DNA of 64,000 nt. It comes from Halorubrum persicum. Its GTDB lineage: Archaea; Halobacteriota; Halobacteria; Halobacteriales; Haloferacaceae. Below, piece by piece: positions 204 through 53,011 of this stretch. Under the pieces are notes generated by a model. That model did not search any database, was not told where the DNA came from, and saw only the letters and a program-made list of their open reading frames with translations. The translations under genes were made by a program, and so were the position numbers. The stretch lies in assembly GCF_002727125.1 (NCBI RefSeq), contig NZ_NHOA01000156.1:1-64000 (forward strand), given 5' to 3'. The first letter of the stretch is position 1. Each line of letters starts with the position of its first letter.

Positions 204-1661
204 TCACTCCCCGTCGGCGATCGGGAACTCCAGTTCGAACACGGCGCCGCGCGGATCGTTGTCGCGGACGCGCACCGTTCCGCCGTACCCCTCGATGATG
301 TCTTTGACGAGGTAGAGTCCGAACCCGGTTCCGTCGCTGTTGGCTCCGCGTTCCTCCTGGGCGAAGACGGACTCTCGACGGGACGCCGAGATGCCGGGGC
401 CGTTGTCGGCGACGCGAAGCCGCAGGACGTCGCCCGCGCGCTCTCCGTCGATGACCACGCGGGGCGGCGAGGCGTCGTTGTGCTCGACGGCGTTCTCGAA
501 CAGGTTCGCGAGCACCCGGTCGAGCAGGTCGTCAGCGCGGACGGATCCCTCCGGAATATCTCGTTTCTCGACCTCGACCGTCGGATACGCCTCCTCTATC
601 GCCTCGATCTGTTCGTCGATGACCGGTTCGAGGGCGACGGTGGTCAGGTCGTGCTCCTCGTTCAACACCGACTGCATGTACGTCCGCATCGTCCGAACGA
701 ACTCCTCCATCTCCTCCGTCCGGTCCATCGCGACCGCGAGGTGCTCCTCGTGAACGTCGGCTTCGAACTCGACGTTCCGGTCGAGCATCCTGAGCCGCGC
801 CTGGACGAGCGAGATGTCGCCGATCAGGTCGTGCCGGAGGGTCCGGTTGACGAACTCCAGCACGTTCCGCTCCTCCCGGACGCGCTCCTCGCGCTCGATG
901 CGCTGGATCGTGTCACCGACGTAGGAGCCGAACAGCTCCGCGGTCGAGAGCTCGTGGCTCTCGAGGCGTTCCGAGCAGAGGTCGATCCGCCCGCGGTCGC
1001 CGATCGCGACCGTCTGGGCGGGCTCGGAACGCTCGCTCGGGTCTGGTGACGTGTCGTGCTCGATGACCACGTCGCCGTCGACGACGACGCGAAACGGAGT
1101 TCCGGGGACGGCACTCGCGATCGCCTCTTCGAGGACCTCGTACGCCTCCTCGTGTGACGTCGCCGACGCGAGCCTGCTGGCGTCCTCGTAGAGCAGTTCC
1201 AGCCGCTCGTTCAGCTCCTGCTCGCGGCTGATCTGCTCCTGGAAGATGTTGTTCCGGACGGTCGAGACGCTGAGGGCGAACGACGCCGTCGCCCCGACGA
1301 GAACGCCGTCGAGCGCCAACACGATGGGTTTGAGACGCCCGAGGATATACCACTGGAGCGCCATCGCCCACGCGAGCACGAACGTCACGGCGAACGCCGT
1401 CAGCAGGGTGCGACGCGCGACCGTCGTGACCTGCTCCGTCTCCCAATCGGTCCGGATCAGCCAGATCCCGCCGGTCACGAGCCCGCCCGCGAGCAGGAAA
1501 AACAGGGCGTTCTCGACCAGCGTCAAAGCGATGCTCCACGACAGGGCGGTGAAGTCGTCCCAGACGTCGTACAGCGGAATGACGAGCAGAATCGCTCCGA
1601 GAAGGCTGATGCTCCCGCCGGCGAGCCACCGGCGAAGTCTCCCCCCCGAAGGTGGGCCCAT
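204..1661 (-). CDS. Membrane-anchored sensor histidine kinase
   Basis: Protein of 485 residues. The N-terminal ~150 residues hold four or five hydrophobic segments, followed by a charged coiled-coil stretch. The kinase core has an H-box around RTLRHDLIGDIS, an N-box NLFENAVEHND, and G-boxes DNGPGIS and GTGFGLYLVKDI. It therefore should autophosphorylate on His and pass phosphate to an unidentified partner. The start at 1661 is chosen because the upstream in-frame extension is Arg-rich and a TATA-like TTATTATC lies about 30 bp upstream, giving a nearly leaderless transcript. The signal sensed cannot be read from the sequence. It is divergent from the PAS kinase at 1866. Confidence 0.85.
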   Translation of the reverse strand: MGPPSGGRLRRWLAGGSISLLGAILLVIPLYDVWDDFTALSWSIALTLVENALFFLLAGGLVTGGIWLIRTDWETEQVTTVARRTLLTAFAVTFVLAWAMALQWYILGRLKPIVLALDGVLVGATASFALSVSTVRNNIFQEQISREQELNERLELLYEDASRLASATSHEEAYEVLEEAIASAVPGTPFRVVVDGDVVIEHDTSPDPSERSEPAQTVAIGDRGRIDLCSERLESHELSTAELFGSYVGDTIQRIEREERVREERNVLEFVNRTLRHDLIGDISLVQARLRMLDRNVEFEADVHEEHLAVAMDRTEEMEEFVRTMRTYMQSVLNEEHDLTTVALEPVIDEQIEAIEEAYPTVEVEKRDIPEGSVRADDLLDRVLANLFENAVEHNDASPPRVVIDGERAGDVLRLRVADNGPGISASRRESVFAQEERGANSDGTGFGLYLVKDIIEGYGGTVRVRDNDPRGAVFELEFPIADGE

Positions 1662-1865
1662 TATGCGGGAACCTTTCCTGATGGCACAGATAATAACCCG
1701 ACCTAATCCCTCGCGCTCCCCGGTGTCCCGCCGCTTCCGCCCCAGCGGCCCGCAGACATCGGTGAAACCGCATGACTGCACGCGGGGTCGGCGAGGTAAA
1801 AACGCGGAAACGGCGTTCCTGGGCGTAAACAATAAATCACCGGTTCGAGATAGACGAGATATCTA
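1662..1865. promoter_or_regulatory. Divergent promoter region of two kinases
   Basis: Two TATA-like stretches face outward. TTATTATC (minus sense, near 1690) serves the kinase at 1661, and AATAAATC (near 1829-1836) serves the kinase at 1866. Both lie about 25-35 bp from the start codons, consistent with short or absent leaders. Confidence 0.5.
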
Positions 1866-4800
1866 ATGTCTTTCGTCTCCGCCGACCCGAAAGAGGTGTT
1901 AGAGCGGATCGAGGACGCGTTCTTCGCGATCGACGAAGAGTGGCGGTTCACCTATCTCAACGCCCGCGCGGCCGAGATGCTCGAAGTCGATCGCGACGCC
2001 GTCGTCGGCGCGGTCCTCTGGGACGAGTTCAGCGAGGCCACCGGAACGAGCTTCCAGCGCGAGTACGAACACGCGATGAACGAACAGGAGTCGGTCTCCT
2101 TCGAGGAGTACTACCCGCCGCTGGACACGTGGTTCGAGGTCAGCGCCTACCCGTCGGAAACCGGGCTTTCCGTGTACTTCCGGGACGTGACGGACCGGGT
2201 CGAGCGCGAGCGGGAACTCGAGCGCTACGAGGGGATCGTCGAGACGGCCCAGGAGGGCATCTACGTCGTCGACGAGGATGGCGTCTTCCAGATGGTCAAC
2301 CGCTCCTACACCGAGATGGTCGGCTACTCGGAGGCGGAGCTGCTCGGAAACGACGTCACGATGGTCGCCGACGAAGAGGCCGCCGAGACCGCGGCCGCGT
2401 TCGAAGCGGAGCTACGGGAGGGGGCGCGCTCCTCGGCGAGTCTGGAGGCGACGCTCGAACGGGCCGACGGCGAGACGTTCTCCGCCGTCGCGACGTTCTC
2501 GCTGCTGCCGAGCGGTGACCGGGTCGGCGTGGTCCGCGACGTCACGGAACAGCGAGAGCGCGAGCGGGAACTCGCCCGGACGCGGGAACTGCTCGAACAG
2601 GCCGAGCGGATCGCCGACGTCGCCGGCTGGGAGATCGATGCCGAGACGCTGGAGATGTTCTGGTCGAACCACCTCTTCGACCTCCTCGGCGTGGACGTCG
2701 AGGAGGAGCCGTCGCTGGACGACTCCTTCGATCTCTGCCACGAGGACGACCGACCGCTCGCCGAAGACGCCGTTACGGAGGCGATCGAATCGGCCGAGCC
2801 CTTCGATATCGAAGCGCGATTCGTCGTCGGCGACGGCGAGACCCGGTGGCTCCACGTGCAGGGCGTGCCGGTGACGGCGGACGGCGAGGTCACGAAACTC
2901 CGAGGCGCCGCCCAGGACATCACCGAGCGCAAGGAGCGCGTGCGCGATCTCGAACTGTACGAGCGCGTCGTCGAAACGACCAACGACGGCGTCTACGCGG
3001 TCGACCAAAACAACCGCTTCATCATGGTCAACGACGCGTTCTGTGAGTTGACCGGCTACGATCGCACGGACCTCCTCGGTCAACCCGTGACCGTCCTCAA
3101 GGACGAAACCGTCTCCTCGAAGGCCGAGCGGCTCGCCGAGGAGATCATCAACGAGGGCCGCGACGAGGCGAAAGTCGAACTGACGCTGCACACGAAGGCG
3201 GGCGCCGACCTCCCGGTCGAGGCCCGGTTGGAGCCCCTCGAGTTCCAAGAGGGTATCGGCCGCTGCGGCGTCGTCAGGGATATCACGCAGCGCAAGCTGT
3301 TCGAAGAGCGGCTGGTGTCGCTCCACGGGGTCACAAGCGAACTGTTCCGGGCCGACTCCGAGGAGACGGTGGCCGAGACCGCGATGCGGGCCGTCCGCAA
3401 CGTCCTGGACGCGCCCGCGGCGTGGTACTTCGACTACGACGCCGCGGAGGGCGTCCTCGCGCCCCGAACCGCCTCCGACAGCGCCGACATCCTGGACTTC
3501 GAGCTCCCCGAACTCACGCTCCAGTCGGAGACCGTCGTCGGGTCGGCGTTCGTCGAGGACGAGAGCCGCCGGATCGACGACATCCGTAACACGCCCGAGT
3601 ACGACGACTTCGATCGGGATGCCGACCTCCGGTCGGCCGTCCTCTCGCCGGTCGGCAACCGCGGCGTCCTCGTCGCCGGCTCACCGGCAGTCGGCGCGTT
3701 CGACGAGCGGACGCGGCAGCTGCTCGAAATCGTCTCGACCGCCGTCGCTGCCGCGTTCAACCGGGTCGAGCGCGAGCAGATGCTCCGCGACCAGCACGAG
3801 CGGCTGTCGGCGTTCAACGACCTGAACCTGCTCGTGCACAGCCTCGCGGAGTCGATGTTCGGGTTATCTTCCCACTCAGACATCGAAGAGCTCGTCTGCG
3901 AACGGCTCGCTTCCTCGGGCTCCTACGAGTTCGCGTGGATCGGGACCGCGGAGGACGACGAGGTGCGAGTGAGTGCCGAGGCCGGCGTCGAGGGATACCT
4001 CGACGACACCACGATCCGGCTCGATGAGGGACCGACGACCGAGGGGCCGACCGCGCAGGCGTTCCTGACCGGAGAGGTACAGACGGTCCAAGACGTCTTG
4101 TCCGAGGACCGATACGAGCCTTGGCAGACCCACGCACGGGAGTTCGGCTACCGTTCGTCGGCGGCGGTGCCCATCGTCAACGACAGCCTCTACGGGACGC
4201 TCAACCTCTACTCTCACCGGGCGAACGCATTCGACGACGAGGAGCAAGAGGCGTTACAGCGTCTCGGCTCGATCATCGCCTACGCGCTGGAGTCGGTCGA
4301 GCGCGACCGCGAGCTCCAGCAGGAGCGAAACCGCCTGGAGTTTATGAACCGCCTGCTGCGTCATAACCTCCTCAACAGCCTCAACGTGGTGAAGGCGCGC
4401 CTCGATCTGCTCGACGGCCGGGTCGACTACGAGGTCTCGTCTGACTTGGAGACCGCGACCCAGCGCACCCAGGAGATGATCGAGTTCGTCGAGACGGTGC
4501 GGCGAGTAACCGACGTGATCGGGCGCGGCGAGGACCAGCAGCTCAGACCCTGCGACCTCGGATCGGTGCTCGAACGCCGCGTCGCTCGCGCCCAGCAGAC
4601 GTATCCCGGGGCCACCTACCACCTCGAATCGGCCCCGTCGGTCGACATCGTGGCCGACGACCTGCTCGGCGAGGTCCTCGACAACGTCCTGATCAACGCG
4701 GTGCAGCACAACGCCGACACCGACCCGGCGGTGTGGGTCGACGCGACGGTCGACGACGAGTCGGTCGTGGTGTCCGTCGCCGACGACGGGCCGGGGATCC

Positions 4801-47467: not shown

Positions 47468-48502
47468 CTATCCCAACAGCCGGTACACGTTCGCTTCGTA
47501 CGTCTCTCGGACCTGGTCGCCCCAGTTGTGGGTGTAGGTGTCGATCACGTCGTCGGCAACGTCGCCGCGGAGGTACTTGACGACGCCGCGGTCCCCCGTT
47601 CGGTCCCGGAGATGGGTCGTGAAGAAGTGACGGAAGTAGTGCGGCGTCACGTTCTCTGCGGCGCCGCCGCCCGTGCGGTACCAGCCCGCGTCTCGGGCGT
47701 GGCGCTCGACGACGTGTCTGACGGCTTGCGGGTCGAGTCGCTCGCCCCACCCCTCCGCGGTGCCGACGAACAGCGGGTCCGCGGCCGACGCGCCGTCCGG
47801 TCGCACGGCGAGCCACCGTTTCAGCGTCCGGGCCAGCTCCTCGTCGACCGGGATCACGGTGGCCCGCTTGCGCTTGTTCGATGCGGTGCGGACCTCGCCG
47901 TTCAGCTCCTCGCCGACGGCGGCGTCCGGCGTGACGTACAGCGAATTCGGGCGGTCCGCGAGGGCCGGTCGCGTCCCGAGCGCGTACGCCGCCTCGACCT
48001 CCTCGTCGTCGATCGCGAGATCGCGGAGATCGAGGTTGCAGAGCTCGCCGACCCGCATGCCGGTCTTCAGCAGGGTGACGACGAGCGCGCGGTGGAGCGG
48101 GTGTCGAACGCCGGCGACGAACTCGCGCATCGCCGGGATCGACACGTCCCGCCGCGCCGGGTCCTTATCCACCGTCTCGTCCATCTCCTCCATCACCAGC
48201 GTCATCGGGTTCCCCTCGAAGACGCCCACCTCGGTCATGTACCCGTAAAATCGGTGCAGATACGCGGCGTACGTCGCCACCGTGCTGTCGGCCACGTCGC
48301 CGCGCAGCGAGTGGACGAACGCCATGCAGTCGCGATGGGTCGCCGACGCCGGCGTCGTTCCGGGATCGAGAAACGACTCGAACCGACGAAGCACGCGCTC
48401 GTAGGAGTCGCGCGTCCGCTCAGTTTTCCCGTGGTAGGTGAGGTCCTCGAGGAAGTACGCGACCGGGTCGTCGACCTCGGCCGGGGCTCGCGTGCTACTC
48501 AT
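47468..48502 (-). CDS. Tyrosine recombinase/integrase
   Basis: 344 residues. An N-terminal SAM-like core-binding domain (PVAYFLEDLTYHGKTERTRDSYERVLRRFESFL) and a catalytic domain with Arg in TGMRVGELCNL, the His-x-x-Arg box HYFRHFFTTHL and the nucleophile Tyr in VIDTYTHNWG. The XerC/D-like length suggests site-specific recombination, possibly chromosomal housekeeping or mobile-element integration. It overlaps the DUF5805 gene by 8 bp. No attachment site was identified. Confidence 0.87.
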   Translation of the reverse strand: MSSTRAPAEVDDPVAYFLEDLTYHGKTERTRDSYERVLRRFESFLDPGTTPASATHRDCMAFVHSLRGDVADSTVATYAAYLHRFYGYMTEVGVFEGNPMTLVMEEMDETVDKDPARRDVSIPAMREFVAGVRHPLHRALVVTLLKTGMRVGELCNLDLRDLAIDDEEVEAAYALGTRPALADRPNSLYVTPDAAVGEELNGEVRTASNKRKRATVIPVDEELARTLKRWLAVRPDGASAADPLFVGTAEGWGERLDPQAVRHVVERHARDAGWYRTGGGAAENVTPHYFRHFFTTHLRDRTGDRGVVKYLRGDVADDVIDTYTHNWGDQVRETYEANVYRLLG

Positions 48503-48875
48503 CGATCAGCGTGTACCCTCCCTTCCGTCCGTTGTACCGAACTCGGTTTTGGTCCTGGAGTGAATCGAGCGCGTCTTCCAGCCGGCCCTCGAAGTCGTCG
48601 AACACCGCGTCGACGAGTTCCTCCCACGAGAGCACGCCGTCGGCGAGCGCCGCTTCGGCCCGTCTTTCGAGGCCGCTACCCCCGGGGTCAGACCCCGTCG
48701 GATCGGGTTCGGCGGGGGTTTCGCTCGCCTCGATCGAAAACCCGCGTCTCCCGGCCTGTACCATCGTTCTGACGAACTCGCTTTGTGACATCCCCAACTC
48801 GTCGGCGTGCTCCTGCCAGGTCGCCTTCTGCCGTTCAGGGACGTACGTCTTCACCGAGCGCCGGTCGTCGCTCAT
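48495..48875 (-). CDS. DUF5805 RHH-like protein partner of the integrase
   Basis: 126 acidic residues. The N-terminal ~45 residues (RRSVKTYVPERQKATWQEHADELGMSQSEFVRTMVQAGRRGF) have ribbon-helix-helix form, followed by a Pro/Gly-rich linker and a helical domain ending GRLEDALDSLQDQNRVRYNGRKGGYTLIDE, which looks like a winged-helix strand. It overlaps the integrase by 8 bp, so the two are produced together; it may be a directionality or repressor factor. That role is inference. Confidence 0.75.
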   Translation of the reverse strand: MSDDRRSVKTYVPERQKATWQEHADELGMSQSEFVRTMVQAGRRGFSIEASETPAEPDPTGSDPGGSGLERRAEAALADGVLSWEELVDAVFDDFEGRLEDALDSLQDQNRVRYNGRKGGYTLIDE

Positions 48876-49721: not shown

Positions 49722-51701
49722 TTAGTCGGGTGGATCGAGACCGTAGTTCTTCTTGGCAAATGTCAGGAACGAGTTTGAAGAGACCGCCGGCTGGTCGCCG
49801 ACCTCACCGTGGAGTTCCAATTGCACGAGAATATCCACGAGTCGCCAGCAGTTGTACAACACGCAAGCAAACGCGAAGTTGAAGTATCGGAATCGGTGGT
49901 CTGGCGACTGTGTCTCCGCGAGGAACGTCTTTAGCTTCTTAAACCCGTTTTCGATGCCCCACCGCCGCTTGTATCGGACCATCAGCCGCCCAATCTGGTG
50001 TTTCATCTCCCGTTCGTTCGAAGGATTGACCTCTATCCACGGAAGGTTCGTCTCGAACGGTACCGTCGGTGCTTCAATCCGCGCTGGTTCCACGATCTCT
50101 TCTTCCTCATGCACCTCATCAAGGATATTTCCCAGCGGTGAGTTGCCGTCGCGGTCCTCTGAGAGCGGCGTTGTCTCGCCGATGTCTTCGAACTCCTCGA
50201 TAAGTTCCTGCCGAACCGTCACGTCATTCCCATCGTCATCTTCGTCCTCACGTTCCCACTCGCGCTTCGGGAGGTAGACTGCCTTTCGTGCAGGCCCGTC
50301 GTCCAGACGCTTTTGCTTGACCACGTCGAAGTCCCTATTCTCGCTGGCGAGCTTAGCAATCTGGTGTTCGTGGTCGCTACTGGAGCGCACAACAGCCGGA
50401 TTCAGGTAGTGAACGTTGTGCTTCTCGCAGGCGTCTTTCACGCCATCATCGGCGAACTCGCGGTCCATCATCACGAGGTCCAGATCGGGGACAATATCTG
50501 TCGCACCATCAAGCAGCTCGTCTACGAGATCTGCTCGCTTCCGGCCGCGTTCGACTGGGACGGCATCGAGTATGAGCGGGACATCGTGACCGACGAGTTT
50601 GATGACTGCCCACTGGAAGAACGGGCCCTCGTCACCTTTGTACCCAAGAATCCACGGTTCCTGATTCTGTCCGCTCCGATCTCGGGTGATCTCGCCATCC
50701 CACGGGTTGCCTTTTGTGAGGTCGATGGCTGCCATCTGCTTGCGGCCCATCTTGTCCTTCGATTTCGCCTGCTTAACGAGTGTCTGGTTAGTCTCCCGGA
50801 GCATTGTCCGAATACGTTCGACACCGAGATCTTTCGTCTGAAGCCGGTGGGAGTCGCCAGACGGCGTCTTCGTCCGGGTAGAGTCTGCGGCAAAGGACTG
50901 TGCGCCGTCGTTGGGATGCATATCAGTTCGCATCCCGAGGTATGACTGCTGTTCCCAGAATGCGCCTTCGGGAATACTCGCGTTCTCGCTGCGATCAAGG
51001 TGGAAGCAGTCCTCGACAATGGGCTTCGCACCCTTCCAAACCTCGCGGGCCTTCTCACGAGCGAGCGTATCCTTGCTTTTTGAACGTGTGACTGTATCCG
51101 TCGGCTGGTTGGGAAGAAACGCTGGTTCGGGCGCAGGAATGTCGTGATAGCGAGCGATATCCACGACGACCTCAGCGGCATCCCGAACGGCATCGCGGAC
51201 ACTTTCGAGACGGCCGTTCCATGCCCGCCAAAGTGTTGACTGATCAGGGATACCGTCGAAGCCGAGCTGCGTGCTGAGAAACGGCTTCTGTTTGAGATAT
51301 TTCCAGAGAGTCGTTTCACTCTTCCAGCCCTTCACGCAGCGGAGCACGTGCGCTCGGAAGACAGCCTCCCAAGGTTTCGGGTCGCCCTGTTCGTGGTCAA
51401 GAGTGTCGTAAAATCGAAGGTAGCGGGCTGGGATTTCGGTGACAAGATCCTCTAGCGTGGCTGAGCGATCGTGTCGGACTTGTTGCTCGCGCGGGAAGGT
51501 TGACAGAACGCCGTCAACCATTTCACGGAACGTCATGCCGAAGGATTGTGCTTCGACAAGCGCGCCAGAATTCGTGGCGTAAAGCCCGTCTACCTCGTAA
51601 TCTTTCGGTGTAGATTCATAGCCCGCGCTGTCTAGATTCCTCCGTGGACCGAGGTACTCCCACCGTGACCCCGTTGGGGCTTCTCCTGCGCATGCTATCA
51701 C
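49722..51701 (-). mobile_element. IS4-superfamily DDE transposase gene
   Basis: Up to 659 residues from GTG 51701. The likely DDE triad has Asp in MAAIDLTKGNPW, Asp in LVMMDREFADDGV and Glu in YKRRWGIENGFKKLKTFL, the YREK-like signature of IS4-type transposases. GC is lower than in the flanking genes. The frame is intact, so the element may be active. Several internal Met (for example the start of MTFREMVDGV) could be the true start. I found no convincing inverted repeats or target duplication, so the element boundaries are open. Confidence 0.8.
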
Positions 51702-51757
51702 TGCTCGTTAATTTATACGTCTTCGTATATAAAAGCGCAGTTACAGTAGGGAACGGC

Positions 51758-51804
51758 TCTGTTGAAATTCTATTCATCAGACAGATTATCGTCTGAAACA
51801 GCCG
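51758..51804 (+). repeat. Left terminal inverted repeat
   Basis: 47-bp arm paired with 52856-52902. It also contains a small internal palindrome CAGAC-N8-GTCTG (51778-51795) that is not kept in the other arm. Confidence 0.7.
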
Positions 51805-51862
51805 ATTGCTGAAGAGTGCGAAAAAACCAAACCGTTTCGTGGCCGGATAATATTCACTCGGA

Positions 51863-52186
51863 ATGACAAACCACGAATCGCGGGAGAATCTTAAGAAATT
51901 GGGAGTCGTCGTTCTTAGTCTCCTCGGAGCGGTTTTGACGTTCTTCGGGCTGGACGCGTACTACTTAGCCGGCATCTTTCTGATATTCGCGGGGGCCGGC
52001 ATGCTCTTTTTGTTGAAACGATACAGAGCGTACTCGATTACTATGCTAATAGCGGGAACTCTCGCACTTGTGCTTGCCATTCTCGCGTACCGGTCTCATG
52101 GTCTCGTGAATTCGACAGTTCTCTATTCCCTTCTCGGCGTAGTTGGCGTCCATCGCGGCGGCCAAGCGTATCGAGCGACAGAGTAA
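51863..52186 (+). CDS. Small membrane protein inside inverted-repeat element (A)
   Basis: 107 residues with three or four hydrophobic helices (LGVVVLSLLGAVLTFFGLDAYYLAGIFLIFAGAGMLFLLKRY and ITMLIAGTLALVLAILAY). Few acidic residues and AT-richer codons than its neighbours, hinting at acquisition. No known family. A TATA-like GATAATATT lies just upstream, but very close to the ATG. Confidence 0.6.
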   Translation: MTNHESRENLKKLGVVVLSLLGAVLTFFGLDAYYLAGIFLIFAGAGMLFLLKRYRAYSITMLIAGTLALVLAILAYRSHGLVNSTVLYSLLGVVGVHRGGQAYRATE

Positions 52187-52437
52187 CTGTACGAAGTGGC
52201 GGTTGCGTCATCTGTACTGAGCGATTCGTGAGCCCTTTCTCGGTGGCACATGGTCCCGTCGTGTACTCCTCTGAAGCACAGGCGTTTTGAGTGGGATCGA
52301 TAGAAATATCGCTTCTATTTGAATCATCTACAATTGGTGTTTTCTCATCTTCAACCACACAGTACAGGAGACTCGCAGATCGCTTAGACCATCTCAGTTT
52401 GACCCACAAGGCACATACGTAATGTAGGACAATTTGA
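52187..52437. other. Spacer within inverted-repeat element
   Basis: 251 bp of AT-rich sequence. No further gene is convincing; it may carry the promoter of the second small gene. Confidence 0.4.
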
Positions 52438-52809
52438 ATGTATATGATTTTGGACAAGCGAACAAGTGAGATTTTAGCGGCCACAGCCGCCTTTCTCTTT
52501 GTTCTTGGGACGTTGACTGGGTTGCGGGTCTGGGACTTGGAGCCCTCGACTTCAGTACAATCGGCTATAGTTTGGGTGGGTGCGCTACTTATTACCGCCA
52601 TGGTTGGCTTCCGGGCGTTTCAGGGCGCAGATCTCGTTGGGAATTGGATACTCGCATTTGGCCCATGTTTTGGTTTTACACTCAATCTGTTCATCCCGAT
52701 CATGGCGGGGCCGGGCGCTTTCATATTCCCAGTTGGAAGTGGAGCAATCATCTCTGGCGTGATTACAGTAGTTGGGTACTTGATCGGACGAGGTTTCAGC
52801 GAGGTTTGA
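52438..52809 (+). CDS. Small membrane protein inside inverted-repeat element (B)
   Basis: 123 residues with about four hydrophobic helices (ILAATAAFLFVLGTLTGL, SAIVWVGALLITAMVGF, NWILAFGPCFGFTLNLFIPIMAGPGAFIF, GAIISGVITVVGYLIG). No recognised family and atypical AT-rich codon use. Same strand as gene A, separated by 251 bp. Confidence 0.6.
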   Translation: MYMILDKRTSEILAATAAFLFVLGTLTGLRVWDLEPSTSVQSAIVWVGALLITAMVGFRAFQGADLVGNWILAFGPCFGFTLNLFIPIMAGPGAFIFPVGSGAIISGVITVVGYLIGRGFSEV

Positions 52810-52855
52810 GATGAACAGGACGCGTAACCGGATTCAATAAGCAGCTCCCATCGAC

Positions 52856-52902
52856 CGGCTGTTTCACGCTAGAATATGTCTGAAGAATAGAATTTCAGCA
52901 GA
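52856..52902 (-). repeat. Right terminal inverted repeat
   Basis: Reverse-complement copy of 51758-51804 with seven differences, mostly in the inner half. Confidence 0.7.
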
Positions 52903-53011
52903 ATAGTAGGTTTGTTTACTGGTGAGAAGAGGCACATAAGAGCACTCAATCAGGTGAGTGGTCGGCGTCGAACCTGTGCATTATTCCCTATCTTCGCAAC
53001 ACGTCGCCGGG

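Follow-up and report, generated by a model that had tools for sequence, protein, structure and literature searches.

The segment at 51755–52905 of the window (the whole 64,000-nucleotide stretch of Halorubrum persicum DNA that was analyzed) very probably comprises two neighboring, non-autonomous members of one haloarchaeal IS5-family transposon group, relatives of ISHla2 and ISHxa2, placed tail to tail. In the following, LE and RE denote the left and right ends of such elements, and TSD the duplicated target site. The features on which this assignment rests are:

51755 to ~52300, + strand: element A, a non-autonomous ISHla2-type IS5-family derivative with ORF1, defined by LE and partial RE profile matches; the right boundary is approximate owing to the decayed RE
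51755–51827, + strand: LE of A, starting GGCTCTGTTGAAATTCTATTC (profile match 51754–51827, E = 1.6e-20)
51863–52186, + strand: ORF1, 107 aa, predicted to form four helices; ISHla2-type elements of other genomes contain homologues
52212–52235, + strand: relic of the right-end box of A, GTACTGAGCGATTCGTGAGCC, matching RE profile positions 2–25 only
52905–52311, − strand: element B, ~595 bp, non-autonomous, with ORF2; LE and RE profile matches on the − strand
52311–52390, − strand: RE of B, degenerate, profile positions 4–73 at 52390–52321 (E = 8e-8); terminus set by eye
52438–52809, + strand: ORF2, 123 aa, predicted to form four helices, running antisense to B as read from LE to RE
52828–52905, − strand: LE of B, the right arm of the inverted repeat (profile match 52903–52828), its tip mutated to TATTCTGCTG in place of GGCTCTGTTG

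Two elements between the inverted arms

The sequence-only reading had described a single passenger element, bounded by inverted repeats and carrying two membrane-protein genes but no transposase. Its observations hold. The arms 51758–51804 and 52856–52902 pair over 47 nt at 85% (blastn of the segment against its own genome), and in a repeat search the pairing extends to 51758–51811 and 52849–52902 (54 nt, 81% complementary). Both ORFs were confirmed on the + strand, the interior is AT-richer (G+C of 51% in A and 48% in B versus 67% in the window), and ORF inspection of the segment found no transposase between the arms. The picture of transposon ends around transposase-less passenger genes stands, but the single element with two genes gives way to two elements with one gene each, which have their own right-end relics and whose genes are separate in relatives.

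Each arm is ~80 bp long, and both represent one and the same end, the left one. They match the LE profile far better than chance allows, at E = 1.6e-20 and 3.3e-20, values to be read with the knowledge that both arms were among the ~19 training sequences taken from genomic copies, the other copies having been found independently by blastn. About 25 copies of the ~80-bp motif are scattered over the genome; a search for GGCTCTGTTGAAATYYTATTC that allowed up to 3 mismatches hits 19 sites, and its reversed control none. Because such copies recur in the genome, and also in 37 haloarchaeal plasmid records, the motif is evidently an element end and not a private repeat pair. A solo 80-bp repeat or RNA element was considered and rejected, Rfam giving only a sub-threshold S15-leader match (E = 0.013).

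The other end was revealed by a complete cassette elsewhere in the same genome (L018, 3688–4509), which reads ...CTGTACTGAGCGATTCGTG...AAGATTTCAACAGCGCC. Profile matches along the window follow the order LE (+), RE relic (+), RE (−), LE (−), and this order argues for two elements facing each other with their tails. L053 and L054, two complete elements with ORF1 and an exact 8-bp TSD each, align with element A; the outer ~60 bp of the RE of A are unrecognizable. In relatives, ORF1 and ORF2 occur apart, each with its own LE. In a comparison across the genus, window 51780–52191 (LE and ORF1) is matched in G050, G004, G045, and G036, and window 52360–52880 (ORF2 and the right arm) in G009, G004, G048, and G027 at 88–97%. 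The G009 match, at 96%, comes without element A, and this genome holds a stand-alone ~597-bp homologue of B (L046, 1475–2071).

If the interval 51755–52905 were instead one passenger element, mobile as a unit, bounded by two terminal repeats of the left-end type and carrying both cargo genes, the inverted, outward-bounding arms would be its natural termini; a 17-bp tip is common to LE and RE, such that two LEs could in principle pair, and an atypical outer end is used by 7/49 autonomous elements. This reading is highly improbable and largely refuted by the two right-end relics that lie inside the interval in opposite orientation, by the absence of an exact TSD around the pair, and by the occurrence of ORF1 and ORF2 elements singly, not together, in relatives. 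The same ends belong to 1.3-kb autonomous copies that hold ORF1 homologues, the kind of larger, complete IS that the sequence-only reading had named as contrary to its proposal.

With regard to the two-element arrangement, both A and B match the LE profile of the ISHla2 group, and neither has a complete RE with a terminal inverted repeat (A retains profile positions 2–25, B positions 4–73 with a degenerate tip). The 8-bp target duplication is a property of the family, and no exact TSD was found at A, at B, or at the A–B pair. Because of this, and because the RE of A is mostly gone, we infer transposition of the A and B copies from their relatives. Both copies are probably relics that can no longer move, with genes that are still maintained.

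A, B, and the neighboring transposase are missing from the locus in 11 of the 11 nearest relatives, which connect 48.9 kb to 53.0 kb via ~0.5–0.6 kb. Sites without the segment, which had been proposed as a check, thus exist, but the comparison is not base-exact, because the intergenic sequence is not the same (in G004 it measures ~586 bp). The neighboring gene, directly left of A (49722–51701, − strand), encodes a 659-aa DDE transposase (PF01609) with weak, below-cut-off similarity to ISH3; no terminal repeats were found for it. A tyrosine integrase gene and a DUF5805/RHH gene (47471–48875, − strand) adjoin the insertion site and keep this position in relatives.

Autonomous members and the family plan

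The same ends also bound an autonomous IS, found both in relatives and in the genome itself. Its transposase belongs to the IS5 family (NCBIfam NF033579, E = 1.6e-64, above cut-off; Pfam PF01609/DDE_Tnp_1) and is 93–95% identical to those of ISHla2 and ISHxa2, haloarchaeal IS5-family elements named in records annotated as IS5-like ISHla2 or ISHxa2; the window elements differ from these in lacking a transposase. Of the 342 genomes sampled from this haloarchaeal order, 113 contain the gene, and they span 54 of 89 genera. One intact autonomous copy resides in the same genome as the window (G000:C52:78267-79478), with the TSD ACTATTTC on both sides and a passenger of 56 aa with two helices.

The family follows one plan. 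An LE of ~80 bp, which has the tip GGCTCTGTTGAAATCCT, is followed by a single passenger gene that may face either way, then by a box resembling CTGTATTGACCG and a back end that terminates in AGGATTTCAACAGAGCC. In autonomous copies, the back end consists of a 273-aa IS5-type transposase beside the RE, reading toward the LE, and in non-autonomous copies of a short RE of ~57 bp. Of the autonomous copies, 30/49 have the box ahead of the transposase stop (1.7 expected); of the non-autonomous copies, 32/38 have it close to the RE. Among the 99 LE–RE pairs that could be scored over all fetched loci, 35 have an exact 8-bp TSD, versus 0.41 expected when partners are shuffled; identical flanks of 5, 6, 7, 9, or 10 bp occur in none.

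Two alternative origins were rejected. Descent from the IS6 family was hinted at by the GGCTCTGTTG tip and the 8-bp TSDs, but the PF13610 matches of the genome do not lie between LE–RE pairs, and the transposase of the autonomous copies belongs to IS5. The non-autonomous REs do not reflect independent, simple transposase deletions in each copy, because these copies have their own common ~57-bp RE sequence, unlike the autonomous RE.

Three contigs of G050 carry identical 1319-bp copies with the order LE, ORF1 homologue, transposase, and RE, and two of these copies differ in their LE flanks. They show that the ORF1-type passenger moves with its transposon and that an autonomous copy carrying it has moved recently. 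For passenger-only copies, the transposase would act in trans. Such mobilization, as the sequence-only reading had supposed, is plausible from the structure of the elements, given the autonomous IS with the same ends in relatives and the intact copy in the genome.

ORF1 and ORF2 as passenger proteins

Comparisons of ORF1 with its homologues yield dN/dS values mostly of 0.4–0.6, with the frame open; for ORF2 the values are 0.14–0.34 over seven homologues, all frames open. Because the ORFs are open and dN/dS is below 1, the encoded proteins have been under purifying selection for at least as long as the copies have been apart. Neither protein has a Pfam or NCBIfam match above cut-off, a PHROG match of weight, or a convincing relative among solved structures. 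AlphaFold models from two-sequence alignments show four helices each at low confidence (mean pLDDT 60 and 53). We commit only to the description of ORF1 and ORF2 as small four-helix membrane proteins carried as cargo. A viral origin was rejected: ORF2 and the left arm have no match in phage records, and viral contigs contain neither relatives of ORF1 or ORF2 nor the LE core.

The sequence-only reading had suggested that the cargo could act in defence or immunity or as a toxin. A mobile slot filled with variable small membrane proteins does resemble diversifying defence or toxin repertoires, and one element of the group with an exact TSD (L057, 1475–3027) has as passengers a PIN-domain protein beside an AbrB-like ORF, a VapBC-like pair. 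However, PADLOC, searched at E up to 1, returned no match for ORF1, ORF2, or two other passengers, the profile searches above were equally silent on ORF1 and ORF2, and the cargo of other elements includes ordinary enzymes, such as a PLP enzyme, an LMW phosphatase, and GNAT, redoxin, and PNPOx proteins. A defence, immunity, or toxin–antitoxin cassette is accordingly very unlikely.

The passenger slot across haloarchaea

The search for other cargo between the same repeats succeeded: nearly every copy has a different gene family. In a non-redundant set of 49 complete autonomous copies, each with an exact TSD and a transposase, the slot always holds at least one ORF of at least 45 aa, and the distance from LE tip to transposase stop ranges from 306 to 1962 bp. 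A recognizable LE is present at 86/113 transposase loci and was not recognized at 27/113; the statement that every copy carries cargo rests on copies with clear ends. At four loci an LE-like signal lies within 100 bp of the transposase, and no empty element with a matching TSD was found among these four when the flanks were read by eye.

The 88 passengers fall into 81 sequence clusters. Those of autonomous copies include lipoprotein-like ORFs, a PLP enzyme, an LMW phosphatase, a member of an FMN-dependent dehydrogenase family, GNAT and redoxin proteins, a TehB-like methyltransferase, and a hexapeptide acetyltransferase; non-autonomous copies contribute PNPOx and PIN proteins, among others. Membrane proteins are strongly overrepresented. 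By hydropathy prediction, the longest slot ORF has at least two transmembrane (TM) segments in 25/49 copies, as opposed to 6% of flank segments and 0% of shuffled slots; a few of these longest frames are probably antisense artefacts, and their inclusion can only weaken the count. Among proteins of 50–205 aa, with TM segments assigned by a hydropathy rule, at least two are present in 24 of 42 slot proteins versus 4 of 69 in a control set of annotated small CDS taken from plasmids of haloarchaea (Fisher p = 2e-9).

A slot filled in all 49 copies, together with this TM excess, could mean that the membrane protein serves the transposon itself, for instance as a regulator, instead of being random cargo, which would account for the lack of empty autonomous copies. 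A conserved transposition function would be expected to look otherwise than 81 clusters among 88 passengers, in either orientation, with many soluble enzymes or lipoprotein-like proteins, and we consider this explanation unlikely. The passengers more likely represent cargo that benefits the host or the element rather than transposition machinery.

Passenger-carrying IS are usually presented as exceptions. In the ISHla2 group, cargo looks like the rule, drawn from a large pool of uncharacterized small membrane proteins with occasional enzymes. The group is of a known kind with an unusually constant cargo slot, that is, a cargo-carrying IS plus non-autonomous cassettes. IS with extra passenger genes are established as transporter IS (tIS; PMC3129680, PMC7986276), and the 49 autonomous elements correspond to them in having intact ends, a transposase, and a gene unrelated to transposition. 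The difference is that every complete copy examined here has cargo, whereas a single tIS member, ISDsp3, has been reported in the whole IS6 family (PMC7986276). Mobile insertion cassettes (MICs) are IS-related, lack a transposase of their own, and can be activated by a cognate one (PMC3129680). Elements such as L136 and L053 resemble them, and so do A and B in a decayed state; A and B combine IS ends, of which the REs are decayed, with a passenger, no transposase, and a cognate transposase in the genome. Unlike the described MICs, dozens of different passengers are here found on the same end modules, and in archaea. The ISH2-type MITE of Halobacterium, or HqIRS32 of Haloquadratum (~520 bp), is likewise a transposase-free haloarchaeal element with a non-transposase ORF, which is reported as expressed and described as that of the only protein-coding MITE of that genome (PMC3119063); the likeness is one of description. 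The literature searched yielded no mention of ISHla2 and no description of the passenger slot, which may already be recorded in ISfinder.

More generally, the ISHla2 group might constitute a gene-shuttling system, a mobile unit that essentially always carries one exchangeable gene, swapped via common ends and box, with small envelope proteins strongly favored by selection or capture. We hold this broader proposal tentatively, at somewhat less than even odds. Were it true, the window would contain two spent cassettes whose genes are still under purifying selection. Cargo as the apparent rule in itself offers small envelope genes a concrete way to pass from one haloarchaeon to another, renders the dominance of membrane proteins and the rarity of empty copies testable, and explains many isolated small "hypothetical" membrane ORFs in annotations as transposon passengers.

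Passengers could be gained by the transposase pairing its own RE with a suitably oriented end of a neighboring copy and carrying off the stretch between. As LE and RE have their tips in common, any suitably oriented neighboring end could serve. At L229, a second LE lies directly before the transposase, but the exact TSD is found at an outer end similar to the inverted short RE of another copy; the atypical outer ends of the 7/49 elements mentioned above score best as inverted RE. Back ends may in turn be swapped at the CTGTATTGACCG-like box, which is consistent with the same passenger occurring with both back ends, as in L188 and L136; the family of ORF1 is among such passengers.

Several further elements illustrate the range of arrangements. 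Three cassettes of the same genome, given in their own orientation, encode a 313-aa protein with the look of an M48-type protease (L033, 2072–3195; TSD 8/8), a PNPOx-family protein (L025, 3894–4607; TSD 7/8), and an exported-looking 674-aa protein (L023, 4017–6332; TSD 8/8). The slot of an autonomous copy from Natrinema ejinorense (L165/L331) holds a 225-aa ORF resembling an IS6-type transposase, as would be seen if one transposon were nested in another or if the passenger were itself a second transposase. Finally, L053 of G045 (1450–3076) packs four LE and two RE copies into 1.6 kb, with two LEs back to back ~7 bp apart.
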